From positions 1 through 64,000 of the forward strand of contig LDXM01000009.1 of NCBI GenBank assembly GCA_001443375.1: a stretch of 64,000 nucleotides of DNA. Direction: 5' to 3'. The notes below the pieces were generated by a model. The model had not been told where the DNA came from. It worked only from the letters and a program-made list of their open reading frames with translations, and did no database searches. Shown here one piece after another: positions 52,398 through 57,513 of the stretch (the first letter of the stretch is position 1; the number at the start of each line of letters is the position of its first letter). A program made the translations under genes and the position numbers. The stretch comes from Chloroflexi bacterium CSP1-4 (lineage in GTDB: Bacteria; Chloroflexota; Limnocylindria; Limnocylindrales; CSP1-4).

Positions 52398-53294
52398 GTG
52401 GCGAAGGGACGCGCGGGACCCGGCGCCGACGACATGGCGCTCGAGGCCGCCGAACGAGCCGCGGCCGCGGAAGCGCAGCACGTCGTGGCAGGTCCGGCAC
52501 CCGCGGACGATACCGAGGCGCCGCCCGAGGACCTCGCGACGGCGACGCACCGGGCGCTCGCGGCGCTGCCCGGACGCTCACCACGGCTCGAGGTCTGCCC
52601 CTTCCTCCGCGCCGGCGAGGGCCCCAACACCGCGCCGGCCGATCGTCCGAACGCCGCACAGCACTGCTGGGCATTCGACGAGCCGCTCGTGCTGGGCCTC
52701 CGGCAGCAGGAGCTCGTGTGCCTCCGTATCGGTCACGGCCACTGCCCGCGCTTCGCCCGCGGAGAGGAGCGGGTCCGCCGCACGCTGGCCCCGGGCCTGG
52801 GACGTCGTCGCCGGCCGGCCCCCGCGGTGCTGCTGGCCGCCGGTCTGCTGGTCGGGGCGATCCTCGTGGCCGCGGGGGCGGTGAGCGGGGGGTTGTCCCT
52901 CCCGGGAGGGTCGGGTGTGGCTGCCGGTCCGACGCCATCGCCGAGCGCTCCACCGGCCACACCCGCGCCCACCCCCCAGCCGACCCTCGCGCCGACGCCG
53001 GCGATCGATCCGACGCCGACCCCGCCGCCCGAGCCGACGCCGACCCCGGCGCCGGTCCCGACCGCCTCGCCGGCCCCGAGCGTCGCGCTGCCAGCCGCAT
53101 GGCAGGGTCTGGCGGCCTGCCCGGCGCCCGATGACTGCTACGTCTACCGGGTCCAGAGGAACGACACGCTCTATGGCATCGCCGCGAAGTTCGGCACGAC
53201 ACTGAACGTCGTGCTCGACCTCAACCCGGCTATCAGCGATCCGAGCACCATCCACGTGGGCGACCAGATCAAGGTGCCGCCGCCCCCTGCCTGA
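52398..53294 (+). CDS. Membrane-anchored LysM-domain protein
   Basis: The protein has 298 residues. The N-terminal cytoplasmic part (1-130) has a four-Cys module: 'VCPFLRAGEG', 'AAQHCWAFDEP', 'ELVCLRIGHGHCPRF'. One transmembrane helix 'VLLAAGLLVGAILVAAGAV' follows, then an 80-residue Pro/Thr/Ala linker. A C-terminal LysM domain has 'YRVQRNDTLYGIAAKFGTTL' and 'GDQIKVPP' and would bind peptidoglycan outside the cell. GTG at 52398 has AGGAGG six nt upstream. It links a possible metal- or redox-sensing module inside to the wall outside. Confidence 0.82.
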   Translation: MAKGRAGPGADDMALEAAERAAAAEAQHVVAGPAPADDTEAPPEDLATATHRALAALPGRSPRLEVCPFLRAGEGPNTAPADRPNAAQHCWAFDEPLVLGLRQQELVCLRIGHGHCPRFARGEERVRRTLAPGLGRRRRPAPAVLLAAGLLVGAILVAAGAVSGGLSLPGGSGVAAGPTPSPSAPPATPAPTPQPTLAPTPAIDPTPTPPPEPTPTPAPVPTASPAPSVALPAAWQGLAACPAPDDCYVYRVQRNDTLYGIAAKFGTTLNVVLDLNPAISDPSTIHVGDQIKVPPPPA

Positions 53295-53450
53295 TCGGGC
53301 GGATCGACCGCGCCGGCGGCGACCGCACCGACTCGGCCATCGACGCCCCGGGCGACCGCCTGACGGTCGGTGGCGCCTGGACGATCCCGAACGTCCGCGG
53401 CGTCCAGGAGGCCGATGTCTTGGGCCGTCAACACCCGTGCAGAAACGGGC

Positions 53451-53478
53451 TTGACGCGACCCCTGCGCGGTGTAAGAT
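53451..53478 (+). promoter_or_regulatory. mraZ: Promoter of the mraZ cluster
   Basis: TTGACG (-35) and TAAGAT (-10) are separated by 16 bp. This is the best sigma-70-type promoter in the window. It would start transcription near 53485, just before the MraZ-type repeats. Confidence 0.65.
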
Positions 53479-53487
53479 GCCGTCCAC

Positions 53488-53523
53488 GTGGCGCAAAGTG
53501 GCGCGAAGTGGGGAACTGGGGTG
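53488..53523 (+). promoter_or_regulatory. MraZ operator repeats
   Basis: GTGGCG (53488), GTGGCG (53498) and GTGGGG (53508) are spaced exactly 10 bp apart, followed by TGGGGTG at 53517. MraZ is known to bind three or four such GTGG-type direct repeats with 10-bp phasing upstream of its own gene. Their place at the start of the transcript fits repression. Confidence 0.7.
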
Positions 53524-53621
53524 AATGTCGGGTGGGAAACCCGGTCCGCCGGCCCTCGAATGGGGGCCGGCGGCCGACCCGACCGTCGCCCCGACCTCGG
53601 CAATCGTGAGGCGCAAGCAGG

Positions 53622-54050
53622 GTGTTCACCGGCGAGTACCGACACACGGTCGACGGGAAGGGCCGCATCGCGGTCCCGGCCCGCTTCCGGTCGAAGCTCG
53701 ACGGCGGCGCCTTCGTCTCGCGCTGGATCGACGGCTGCCTGGGCATCTTCCCGCGGGACGTCTTCGAGGAGCTGGCGGACCGCGTGGCCGCCAAGCCGGT
53801 CACGGACGCAGGTGCCCGCACCTTCTCGCGCTTCGTCTTCTCGGGGGCCTTCGAGGTCGAACTCGATGGCCAGGGTCGGGTGGTCGTGCCGCCCGGTCTC
53901 CGGGAGTGGGCGGGCCTGGAAGGGGAGACCGTGGTGGTGGGATCGCGCGACCACATCGAGCTGTGGGAACCCCGCAAGTGGGCGGCCTACAGCGAGGCGA
54001 TGACCTCGCCCGATGTCCTCGCCGAGCACCTCCAGGGCCTCGGCATCTAG
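53622..54050 (+). CDS. mraZ: Transcriptional regulator MraZ
   Basis: The protein has 142 residues with two AbrB-like repeats: 'GEYRHTVDGKGRIAVPARFR' and 'ELDGQGRVVVPPGLREWAG', each with the DxxGR motif. MraZ is an oligomeric DNA-binding protein that controls the division and wall cluster by binding repeats like those just upstream. The start is GTG at 53622, which gives the normal MFTGEY beginning. Confidence 0.95.
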   Translation: MFTGEYRHTVDGKGRIAVPARFRSKLDGGAFVSRWIDGCLGIFPRDVFEELADRVAAKPVTDAGARTFSRFVFSGAFEVELDGQGRVVVPPGLREWAGLEGETVVVGSRDHIELWEPRKWAAYSEAMTSPDVLAEHLQGLGI

Positions 54051-54093
54051 CGGACCAGACGCGTCTTCAGGGTCCGGACGGATCCGCAGCTCG

Positions 54094-55050
54094 GTGGTGG
54101 CAAGGCCGGAAGCAGGGCACCAGCCCGTGATGGTGGAGGAAGTCATGCAGGCTCTCTCGCCCGTCCCGGGCAGCCTCCAGGTCGATGCCACCCTTGGCGG
54201 CGGAGGGCACGCCGTCCGGATCCTGGAGGCGAATGCGCCTGATGGCCGCCTGCTCGGCCTGGATGCCGATCAGGCGGCCATCGCCAGGTGCGCCGTCCGC
54301 CTTGCGTCGTTCGGGGAGCGCGCGGTCCTGCGTCAGGCGAACTTCGAGGAGCTCGCCGGGCTCGCCCCGGCGGCCGGCTTCGAGCGCGTCGATGGGGTCC
54401 TCTTCGACCTCGGGCTGAGCTCCTTCCAGCTCGCCGACGAGGAGCGCGGCTTCAGCTTCCGCGCCGAGGGACCGCTCGACCTGCGCTTCGATCCGACCCG
54501 CGGCCGGCCGGCCAGCGCGTTGCTCGAGGAGCTCGACGAACGCGAGCTGGCCCGGGTCCTGCGAGCCCACGGCGAGGAGCCCTTCGCCGGGCGCATCGCC
54601 CGCGCCATCGTCGCCGAGCGCGAGCGTGGACCGATCGCCAGCGCAGCCCGACTGGGCGCTCTCGTCGAGCGCGTCGTCCCCACGCCGCGCGGGGGACGAC
54701 GTCGTACGCATCCCGCCACGCGGACGTTCCAGGCCCTGCGTATCGCGGTCAACCGCGAGCTCGAGGTGCTGCCGGCGGCCCTGGCCGCGGCCGTGGACCT
54801 GCTGCGCCCGGGAGGCCGGCTGGTCGTGCTCGCGTACCACTCACTCGAGGACCGCATCGTCAAGCGTTTCGTCGCGGCCGAGCGGCGCGGATGCGTCTGC
54901 CCGCCGGTGCTGCCGGTCTGCGTCTGCGGGCACTCGGCGCGGCTCCGCCCCATCGGTCCCAGCCCGGCCTTCCCCACGGCCGAGGAGGTGGCCCACAACC
55001 CTCGCGCCCGGAGCGCCCGCCTGCGGGCCGCCGAGCGCCTGGCCGCTTGA
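54094..55050 (+). CDS. rsmH: 16S rRNA m4C1402 methyltransferase RsmH
   Basis: The protein has 318 residues. 'GHQPVMVEEVMQALSPVPG' at the N-terminus, SAM-binding 'VDATLGGGGHAVRIL', 'LGLDADQAAI', 'VDGVLFDLGLSSFQLADEER', 'THPATRTFQALRIAVNREL' and 'LAYHSLEDRIVKRF' are all typical of RsmH (MraW). It methylates C1402 of 16S rRNA with SAM. GTG at 54094 or 54097 is the start since the HxPVM motif must be included; no strong ribosome-binding site is seen. Confidence 0.95.
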   Translation: MVARPEAGHQPVMVEEVMQALSPVPGSLQVDATLGGGGHAVRILEANAPDGRLLGLDADQAAIARCAVRLASFGERAVLRQANFEELAGLAPAAGFERVDGVLFDLGLSSFQLADEERGFSFRAEGPLDLRFDPTRGRPASALLEELDERELARVLRAHGEEPFAGRIARAIVAERERGPIASAARLGALVERVVPTPRGGRRRTHPATRTFQALRIAVNRELEVLPAALAAAVDLLRPGGRLVVLAYHSLEDRIVKRFVAAERRGCVCPPVLPVCVCGHSARLRPIGPSPAFPTAEEVAHNPRARSARLRAAERLAA

Positions 55051-55143
55051 GCCGCCGCATCGACCGAGATCAGCGCGGCCACTCCACCACGAGCCACTCA
55101 GGAGCAGCAGCCCGGGAGTACCGGCCCAGAGGAGGGACCGAAC

Positions 55144-55350
55144 GTGAGCCGACACCAATCCCGCCGCCGCCGAACGTATGGGCGACGACAGCACGAACTG
55201 CATGAGCGCCGTATCGACCGCGGCACGTGGGACATGTCCGACGACGCCCGCGGTACCCGGCTCGACGGCGCCGACGACGGCTTCGGCTCGGGTTCGCCGT
55301 TGTACGACCTGCTCTCGCCCCGCCTCCGCTTCGCCGAAGGCCGCGGGTGA
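55144..55350 (+). CDS. Small basic/acidic protein between rsmH and ftsL, unknown
   Basis: The protein has 68 residues and I do not recognise it. The first 25 are very basic ('SRHQSRRRRTYGRRQHELHE'), the rest acidic and Gly/Ser-rich, ending 'SPLYDLLSPRLRFAEGRG'. AGGAGGG lies eight nt before the GTG start, one of the best ribosome-binding sites in the window. Its stop overlaps the ftsL-like ATG (TGATG), so at the least its translation would couple to ftsL. No membrane helix. It may be a lineage-specific division protein or a translated leader. Confidence 0.6.
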   Translation: MSRHQSRRRRTYGRRQHELHERRIDRGTWDMSDDARGTRLDGADDGFGSGSPLYDLLSPRLRFAEGRG

Positions 55351-55700
55351 TGGCCGTCTACGAGGGCGCCCGCCGCATCGCACGGCCGCTGGTCCCGCCG
55401 CGCCGCCAGCGGACGGTCCGGGTTCGGGCACGCCGCGGCACCAGCCGCGTCGGCCTGACGCTGGCGGCGATCCTCGTCGTCTTCCTGCTGGCCCTCTTCT
55501 ACCTGACCCAGACGCTGGGCGTGGCAGCGCTCAACTACGACATCGACACACTTATCGCCGAGCGCAGTGCGATCGAGCAGCAGCTCCAGTCGGTCGCAGG
55601 CGACATCGCGCGCTGGGGCGCCGAGCCGGCCATCATCAAGGGCGCCCAGCAGGCCGGTCTCGACCGGCTCGGTGACGGCGTCCGCATCCCCGCTCGCTGA
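55350..55700 (+). CDS. FtsL-like septum protein
   Basis: The protein has 116 residues in the standard FtsL position. The topology is bitopic: a basic cytoplasmic N-terminus of about 40 residues, one transmembrane helix 'VGLTLAAILVVFLLALFYLT', and an extracytoplasmic coiled coil 'IDTLIAERSAIEQQLQSVAG'. FtsL, with FtsB and FtsQ, activates the FtsWI synthase at the septum. FtsL sequences diverge strongly, so the call rests on position, topology and length. Confidence 0.75.
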   Translation: MAVYEGARRIARPLVPPRRQRTVRVRARRGTSRVGLTLAAILVVFLLALFYLTQTLGVAALNYDIDTLIAERSAIEQQLQSVAGDIARWGAEPAIIKGAQQAGLDRLGDGVRIPAR

Positions 55701-55707
55701 TCGAACG

Positions 55708-57513
55708 ATGCTGGGTCGGACCGACCGGCGCCCCCGCCTCGTCATCCTCCTGGTCTTCGTCGTGCTGGGGGCCGCGGCCCTGGGAGCGCGGCTCGCCTAC
55801 TGGCAGGTCGTGCGTGGCGCCGAGCTGCGCGACGACGCCTTGGCGCAGCTCGAGCGGGCGATCAAGGTGCCGGTCCAGCGCGGCGAGATCTACGATCGCT
55901 CGGGCACCATCGTGCTGGCCACCACCGGCTACCGCGACCTGCTGGCAGCCTATCCCAAGCGGATCCCGGCAGCGGACAAGGCCGCCGTCGCCGATGAGCT
56001 GGTGGCCATCCTCGACCTGGAGGGAGCGGCGGCGGAGAAGCTGCGCACGACGATCGGCGGCGCTGCCGAGTACGCGGTCCTGGCGCAGCTCCTCACGCAG
56101 GGCCAGAGCGAGGATGTCAGCGCCGGCCTGGCCGACGGGCGACTGCTGGGCCTGGAGCTCGACCCACAGCCGATCCGCATCTATCCCAGCCAGGGCGGGG
56201 CCCCGGCGACCACGCTGGCCAGCCAGCTGCTGGGCTTCACGAACCGCGAAGGCGAGGGCCAGTACGGCATCGAGCAGCGCTACCAGGACCTGCTGGCGGG
56301 CCGCCCGCGCATCGTCACCGCGCTGCGGGACGTGGCCGGCCGGCCGATCGCCGACTCGGAGCGCGCGGTGGACACCGGCGCGCCGGGTGCCGACCTCGTC
56401 CTGACCATCGATGCCGGTCTGCAGCTCCAGCTCGAGAAGGAGCTGTATGCCGCCTGGGTGGCGGACCGGGCCCAGACGGTCAGCGCCGTGGTCATGGACC
56501 CCCAGACCGGCGAGATCCTGGCCTGGGCGAGCGTGCCCGGCTACGACGCGAACGAGTACCAGCGCGTGGCGAAGGAGGATCCGGGGCTCTTCCTGGACCC
56601 GGTCGTGGGCGCCGTCTACGAACCCGGCTCGGTCATGAAGATGTACGTCGCAGCGGCCGCCTACGAAGCGGACGTGGTGACCCCGCAGACTCGCATCAAC
56701 GACAGCGGCAGCCTGCGCATCGGCCGTTCGACGATCTGGGACAGTGACAAGCGCGCCATGGGCCGGATGGCCTTCGAGGACGGCATCGCCTACTCGCGCA
56801 ACATCGTCGCCGCGCGCGTGGCGCGCATGCTGGGCCCCGATGTGCGCTCGGCGGCGGCGTCGCTCTACGACATCTGGGCGCGGCTGGGCATCGGCCGCGC
56901 CACCGGCGTGGACACGTCGGGCGAGCTGCCCGGCCTGGTGGTCGACCCGGCCGTCAAACGGTGGGCGGAGATCGACCTGGCCAACCGGAGCTTCGGCCAG
57001 GGCGTGGCCGTGACGCAGCTGCAGCTGGCCACGTCCTTCTCGACCATGGTCAACGGCGGCTACCGGGTGACCCCGTACCTCGTGGACGGCATCGGCGGAG
57101 AGCGCCTCGAGCGGCCGCCGGCCGAGCCGGTCATCGACGCGCAGCTGTCGGCCGAGCTGACCGACCTCATGACGCACGTCGTGACCAGCGTCCCGTGGTA
57201 CGCCGAGGGCACGCTCATCCCCGGCTACGCGGTCGGCGGCAAGACCGGCACGGCCCAGATCTGGGATGGCGAGCGCCAGGACTGGATGCCCCTGACATTC
57301 AACTTCAGCTTCGTCGGCTTCGTCGGGCAGGACGGGCCGGACGCGGTCATCGCCGTGCGCATCGGCGACACGCGGCCGAAGGTCATCCGGCAGGGTGAGC
57401 TCAAGCTCAGCATCACGTCGTTTGAGCTCTTCCGGCGCATCGCGCTCGACACCATCGACGTCCTCGGCATCCCGCCGGCCGAGGCGTCGCGCCGCGATGA
57501 CCTGGGGCGTTGA
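55708..57513 (+). CDS. Class B penicillin-binding protein (FtsI/PBP2-type transpeptidase)
   Basis: The protein has 601 residues. N-terminal transmembrane helix 'VILLVFVVLGAAALGARLAY', a dimerisation/pedestal domain (about 45-225) with 'RGEIYDRSGTIVLA', and a transpeptidase domain with the catalytic Ser in 'EPGSVMKMY' (SxxK), 'SRN' in 'YSRNIVAA' (SxN) and 'GGKTGTAQ' (KTG). It crosslinks septal peptidoglycan and partners FtsW, encoded in the same cluster. The ATG lies 7 bp after ftsL. It ends inside murF; murE is not found between them. Confidence 0.93.
   Translation: MLGRTDRRPRLVILLVFVVLGAAALGARLAYWQVVRGAELRDDALAQLERAIKVPVQRGEIYDRSGTIVLATTGYRDLLAAYPKRIPAADKAAVADELVAILDLEGAAAEKLRTTIGGAAEYAVLAQLLTQGQSEDVSAGLADGRLLGLELDPQPIRIYPSQGGAPATTLASQLLGFTNREGEGQYGIEQRYQDLLAGRPRIVTALRDVAGRPIADSERAVDTGAPGADLVLTIDAGLQLQLEKELYAAWVADRAQTVSAVVMDPQTGEILAWASVPGYDANEYQRVAKEDPGLFLDPVVGAVYEPGSVMKMYVAAAAYEADVVTPQTRINDSGSLRIGRSTIWDSDKRAMGRMAFEDGIAYSRNIVAARVARMLGPDVRSAAASLYDIWARLGIGRATGVDTSGELPGLVVDPAVKRWAEIDLANRSFGQGVAVTQLQLATSFSTMVNGGYRVTPYLVDGIGGERLERPPAEPVIDAQLSAELTDLMTHVVTSVPWYAEGTLIPGYAVGGKTGTAQIWDGERQDWMPLTFNFSFVGFVGQDGPDAVIAVRIGDTRPKVIRQGELKLSITSFELFRRIALDTIDVLGIPPAEASRRDDLGR

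Follow-up and report, generated by a model that had tools for sequence, protein, structure and literature searches.

A 68-codon open reading frame (ORF) at positions 55144-55350 of the forward strand, within the 64,000-nucleotide stretch of Chloroflexi bacterium CSP1-4 DNA analysed here (the window), is a real and unclassified gene found across many uncultured Chloroflexota, as established by conserved orthologues and codon-level selection. It starts with GTG, ends with TGA and lies between an upstream ORF that we take to be rsmH (mraW; 54130-55050, forward strand) and ftsL (55350-55700, forward strand; 116 amino acids). The latter was assigned from NCBIfam FtsL models (E 0.007-0.009, under the model cut-offs), a membrane stretch (KD19 2.75) and its position before a downstream ORF (55708-57513, forward strand) that is presumably ftsI. 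The genes after ftsI are taken from position and recall to be murF, mraY and murD, and those after murD are ftsW, murG, ddl, ftsQ, ftsA and ftsZ by Pfam matches. A hydrophobic ORF of 107 amino acids between ftsQ and ftsA (L157:6923-7246; about 66922-67245 of contig C9 of G000) presumably resembles the small, basic membrane protein that is commonly encoded at this place. As 76 ORFs of at least 60 amino acids overlap a 12-kb stretch of this GC-rich DNA, ORF length alone is no evidence of a gene. The first-pass annotation had proposed that the division cluster contains a genuine small protein positioned for coupling to ftsL, and this proposal is strongly supported by the conservation, position and selection described below.

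We searched 61 genomes with the protein and obtained matches at E<=1 in 46 of them. Thirty places were fetched from this search, 28 of which held rsmH, ftsL and ftsI; the two excluded were one without rsmH at a contig end and an off-target place (L029) with all three genes absent nearby. L015 escaped the search pattern and is missing from the first orthologue set. The 28 orthologues were extracted and aligned (A1), and a profile of this alignment was run on 177 genomes of the class, giving matches at E<=0.01 in 111. The window belongs to family f1, which accounts for 94 of these matches (107 genomes); f4, a second Candidatus Limnocylindria family, has 16 matches in 22 genomes, and there were one of 28 in f3 and none among the 19 of f2 or the single genome of f5. 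The 94 f1 matches are profile matches, with genomic place checked for some only, and the sole f3 match (G138, E 0.004) was dropped because its rsmH lies on a different contig. For comparison, the window's rsmH was matched at E<=1e-20 by 161 of the 177 genomes. Ten of the 13 f1 genomes without a profile match also gave no rsmH match at this threshold; in the non-matching G088 and G121, rsmH matches were weaker than E 1e-20, with positions not listed. Another f1 genome, G082, retains a degraded 26-codon remnant, MTRSHQASLRRSYGHRQRLNPDRGID, still adjoining ftsL (L096, reverse strand 127-207), indicating that the small protein can be lost. Two f4 genomes (G163 and G168) gave no profile match, yet the gene was present on direct reading.

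The first 69 orthologues had been picked by the pattern RR-YGRR, and 56 named loci by a pattern of the same residues. Because these sets were motif-selected, the nine invariant residues and the first pN/pS values obtained from them were too favourable. To address this bias, we retrieved 87 f1 loci from the position of rsmH, regardless of how they scored with the profile; with the window added and L268 removed, being cut off by a contig end, 87 loci remained. At 81 of them, the A1 profile matches an ORF whose end meets the start of the presumed ftsL, itself a membrane-anchored ORF (anchored orthologues). The other six lacked a qualifying pair of ORF and ftsL start, but a profile match lay beside rsmH by coordinates in all six. 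A frame that was not conserved in relatives had been named beforehand as the result that would speak against the gene; an orthologous ORF at 81 of 87 f1 loci is the opposite outcome. Among the 56 named loci, rsmH was directly upstream of the small gene in 53 of the 53 that were testable, and ftsI was downstream in 53 of 53.

Residue conservation is concentrated in the N-terminus, which reads about MSKRHQxSRRRxYGRRQHExxER. In window numbering, R9 and R15 were kept in all 81 anchored sequences, Y12 in 80, H4, R8 and G13 in 79, H17, E21 and R22 in 76, and R14 and E18 in 74. RR-YGRR was kept in 72, while nine vary (YGPR, YGKR, YGHR and others). Three orthologues of genus g27 (L217, L222 and L228) carry YGPRQ or YAPRQ instead of YGRRQ, so that a proline falls midway along the predicted helix.

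Selection acts on the amino-acid sequence of the small protein. Heterozygosity at the first, second and third codon positions of the N-terminus was 0.20, 0.18 and 0.46 among the anchored orthologues. In 111 same-genus pairs of equal length, N-terminal pN/pS was 0.231 against 2.02 and 2.62 in the shifted frames, and pN was lower than pS in 111 of 111 pairs. The corresponding tail value was 0.756 (1.14 and 1.16 in the shifted frames), with pN lower than pS in 94 of 111 pairs; kinship was ignored in all these tests. The first motif-selected set had given 0.156 for the N-terminus and 0.558 for the tail (52 pairs of at least 60% identity). A looser pairing, in which 296 pairs were selected for low pS and tails could contain gaps, yielded 0.44 and 1.24, values that we distrust since pS is near saturation. 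The evidence for selection on the tail is weak under either pairing, and the frame-specific excess of synonymous change as a whole is that of a protein-coding sequence.

We then considered how the gene is placed for translation. A Shine-Dalgarno (SD) sequence read as GAGGAGGG (55129-55136, forward strand) contains AGGAGG ending 8 nucleotides upstream of the GTG, in agreement with the very strong ribosome-binding site first noticed. The stop codon said to be shared with the ftsL start is so as a one-base overlap: the TGA (55348-55350) and the ftsL ATG (55350-55352) have one base in common in TGATG (55348-55352, forward strand). An SD run of at least 4 bases of AGGAGG preceded the small gene at 74 of the 81 anchored loci (40% after shuffling). 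For ftsL it was present at 13 of 81, which is chance level (15.9% after shuffling). The first, motif-selected set had given 65 of 69 and 11 of 65, respectively. At 53 of 81 anchored loci, ftsL starts two bases after the first base of the small-gene stop. In f4, the small gene has an SD run of 5 or 6 in 16 of 16 cases, and ftsL a run of at least 4 in 5 of 15. Stop-start overlap or closeness without an SD of ftsL's own is the arrangement in f1, while f4 is mixed. In f2, f3 and f5, where the gene is absent, ftsL and the rsmH stop overlap by 4 nucleotides at 16 of 17 loci, and at the remaining one ftsL starts 30 nucleotides downstream.

The combination of a strong small-gene SD with a chance-level ftsL SD suggests that ftsL is probably translated by coupling to the small gene. 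Ribosomes would load at the small gene and cross the stop-start overlap to ftsL, a step to which these counts lend good support. Judged from the gene order in families with and without it, the small gene appears to have replaced rsmH as the cistron handing ribosomes to ftsL. Such coupling would lead to the small protein and FtsL being made together and would uncouple FtsL output from rsmH. The f4 ftsL genes that carry their own SD argue against coupling as a rule.

The family is restricted in distribution and unclassified in the databases searched. No Pfam or NCBIfam family was matched at E<=0.01 by any of 57 members, and no PHROGs family by 28 members at the same threshold. One NCBIfam CRISPR match for one relative (E 0.18) is at chance level. 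The sole PDB profile match, lectin CSL3 (E 6e-5), was taken as chance, as it consists of two 11-residue stretches that reach only about E 2 each; no ribosomal protein was among the PDB profile matches. In 400 genomes of the phylum, all 37 matches at E<=0.001 fell within f1 or f4. When 84,980 genomes, one for each species, were scanned with a pattern that would miss divergent members such as those of f4, 96 pattern matches were obtained. Fifty-six of these encode relatives, and all 56 come from metagenome-assembled genomes titled Chloroflexi/Chloroflexota, Candidatus Limnocylindrales or, once, Anaerolinea sp. By eye, no comparable ORF followed rsmH in 23 loci outside the class. In a tree of RsmH and FtsI (57 taxa), f1 joins f2 (support 98) and then f4 (100), and f3 plus f5 (100) stand apart with outgroup taxa in between, so that the class is not recovered from these two genes. 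The simplest history would be that the gene was gained before f1, f2 and f4 diverged and was later lost in f2, a family with genomes of about 0.8-1.2 Mb. We found no description of this gene in the literature examined, subscription papers being largely outside reach, nor in the accessible part of PMC10608941. In the part of PMC8871954 available, unidentified sequences between mraW and ftsI are merged as ftsL by location, a procedure that could hide such a gene.

Charge divides the small protein into the two parts, basic then acidic, that the first-pass annotation had described: net charge is +6 over residues 1-22 and −2 over residues 23-68. The division recurs among the 81 anchored orthologues, with an N-terminus averaging +6.0 and a tail that is negative in 75. 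Codons 2-22 (55147-55209, forward strand) encode the basic N-terminus, the best conserved part, which had not been singled out earlier. AlphaFold2 run on 57 sequences predicted a helix over residues 2-34, with mean pLDDT of 90 and 94 in the first two ten-residue blocks; a relative's prediction gave a helix over residues 3-28. Only this N-terminal helix is predicted with confidence, and the variable, mostly acidic tail (codons 23-68; 55210-55347, forward strand) has low confidence. Conserved positions showed no preferred helix face in the motif-selected set (R 0.10; 55% of shuffles as high), so a one-faced helix is unsupported. No membrane stretch was detected (maximum KD19 0.11 in the window protein and at most 1.18 across 69 orthologues), and the small protein is best explained as soluble and cytoplasmic.

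The C-terminal SPLYDLLSPRLRF (55294-55332, forward strand), first pointed out as a putative interaction motif, is partly borne out: it is the window's form of a clade-specific tail element, and the tails of other sublineages differ. One regular expression found this element, F-x-F-L-D-P-R-x-P-R-L-R-F (YDLLSPRLRF in the window), in 27 of 69 orthologues versus a mean of 1.0 in shuffled tails, and the element occurs in 25 of the 81 anchored tails. The 16 f4 sequences keep the basic start, MS[RK]G...HQ..RRR.YS.RQ, and have a different acidic tail. FtsZ (L157:8679-9878) ends in EDLDIPAFLRRKS, presumably a canonical C-terminal peptide, to which the GLDFEAPTSWGVRL present in the small-protein tails of several f4 members may bear a loose likeness.

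As to function, we favour at roughly even chances the reading that the gene encodes a cytoplasmic accessory division protein of the dcw cluster, coupled to FtsL. Under this proposal the small protein may work alongside FtsL and FtsI at the cytoplasmic face of the divisome, and its acidic tail might rest against the cytoplasmic tail of FtsL, which is very basic (+10 over 33 residues). Like FtsL and DivIC, which belong to the division apparatus, it is small, and FtsL is encoded next to it; unlike them it has no membrane segment, FtsL being a separate membrane-spanning ORF. In E. coli, FtsN has a short basic cytoplasmic segment, a membrane anchor and a SPOR domain. The small protein is like the first of these and differs from FtsN in having neither a membrane segment nor a Pfam SPOR match. 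By analogy with the FtsN cytoplasmic domain, the basic N-terminal helix could bind one partner, for which FtsA is a candidate. Titles in the reference list of PMC5508204 state that this FtsN domain binds the 1C subdomain of FtsA and that FtsN has a conserved FtsA motif. A SPOR profile matched 2 of 22 genomes, both of f3 and barely above cut-off. A DivIC profile matched 19 of 22 at E<=0.01, 11 above cut-off. Neither profile matched in the window's genome.

Several observations weigh against parts of this proposal. FtsA was found in 37 of 37 chosen class genomes and SepF in none of the 37, so profiling the two failed as a discriminator; FtsA is also present in families without the small gene and does not track it. 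From the same counts, the class seems reliant on FtsA for FtsZ anchoring. A surface-docking helix fits poorly with conserved positions that have no preferred face. The weak selection on the tail (pN/pS 0.76, or 1.24 with looser pairing) and the G082 remnant, by which the protein can be lost, also count against the division reading.

The FtsL cytoplasmic tail was compared among families. Its median length is 101 residues in f2 (7 loci), 49 in f1 (from 17 of 19 loci), 45.5 in f4 and 46 in f3; medians were used because the chosen FtsL start is doubtful for L017, L080 and L205. At the f2 loci L158-L164, from genomes of about 1 Mb, it is twice that of the other three families. In f2, the sister of f1, it is as if FtsL compensates for the missing gene. 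Against compensation, the f2 lengthening is one evolutionary event and f3 tails are short (46) without the gene; hhalign detected no similarity between the small protein and the long f2 FtsL tail. A more specific form of the division reading makes the small protein a previously unrecognised, lineage-specific divisome part in the cytoplasm, a linker with two charged ends that connects the ring of FtsA and FtsZ to the synthase complex of FtsL and FtsI. Its gene would have entered the otherwise very conserved dcw cluster together with a ribosome-loading site, and in the streamlined sister family an FtsL cytoplasmic tail of twice the length would have taken the protein's place. We regard this version as distinctly unlikely.

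The main competitor to a division role is an RNA- or ribosome-binding protein whose arginine-rich helix acts on its own operon mRNA or on rRNA, perhaps as a dcw autoregulator or a partner of RsmH. A net charge of +6 in 22 residues, a helix predicted at a pLDDT of about 90, conserved residues all round that helix rather than on one face, and the upstream neighbour RsmH, a 16S rRNA methyltransferase, are all in keeping with it. Arginine-rich-motif RNA-binding helices are short and very basic, and the small protein recalls them in its predicted helix and charge; it departs from them in its long acidic tail. No Rfam match was found in 53000-57000, the gene overlaps ftsL and not rsmH, and lectin CSL3 rather than any ribosomal protein was the PDB profile match, leaving RNA binding rather unlikely. 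A cytoplasmic role unrelated to division or RNA, for example that of an adaptor peptide merely travelling in the operon, would suit the bipolar charge and the low-confidence tail, both common in adaptor proteins. Because the location is fixed across two families, a link with the neighbours is indicated, and we consider such a role improbable.

The two remaining explanations deny the protein a function of its own. Translationally coupled leader cistrons combine a strong SD on a small ORF with a stop-start overlap with the next gene, and the small gene matches this description. If it were a leader cistron only, its translation would deliver ribosomes to ftsL and the peptide would be inert, as also suggested by the chance-level ftsL SD and by the degraded G082 copy that still ends next to ftsL. 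Unlike such leaders, the small protein is itself conserved at the amino-acid level: N-terminal pN/pS is 0.23 with pN below pS in every pair, and R9, R15 and Y12 are kept in 81, 81 and 80 of 81 orthologues. An inert peptide is accordingly very improbable. Long chance ORFs are frequent in this GC-rich DNA, but a chance ORF has next to no probability here, being refuted by frame-specific selection and by conservation of frame, position, SD and sequence at 81 of 87 motif-blind loci.

The rsmH-ftsL junction is part of one of the most conserved bacterial gene clusters, and a conserved, unclassified gene at this junction seems to have become the point at which ribosomes are loaded for ftsL. If the small protein acts in division, it would represent a new family of division proteins, in a phylum where this process has received little attention. 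In any case, a new gene seems to have rewired translational coupling here, and the small gene may serve as a marker of two Limnocylindria families.
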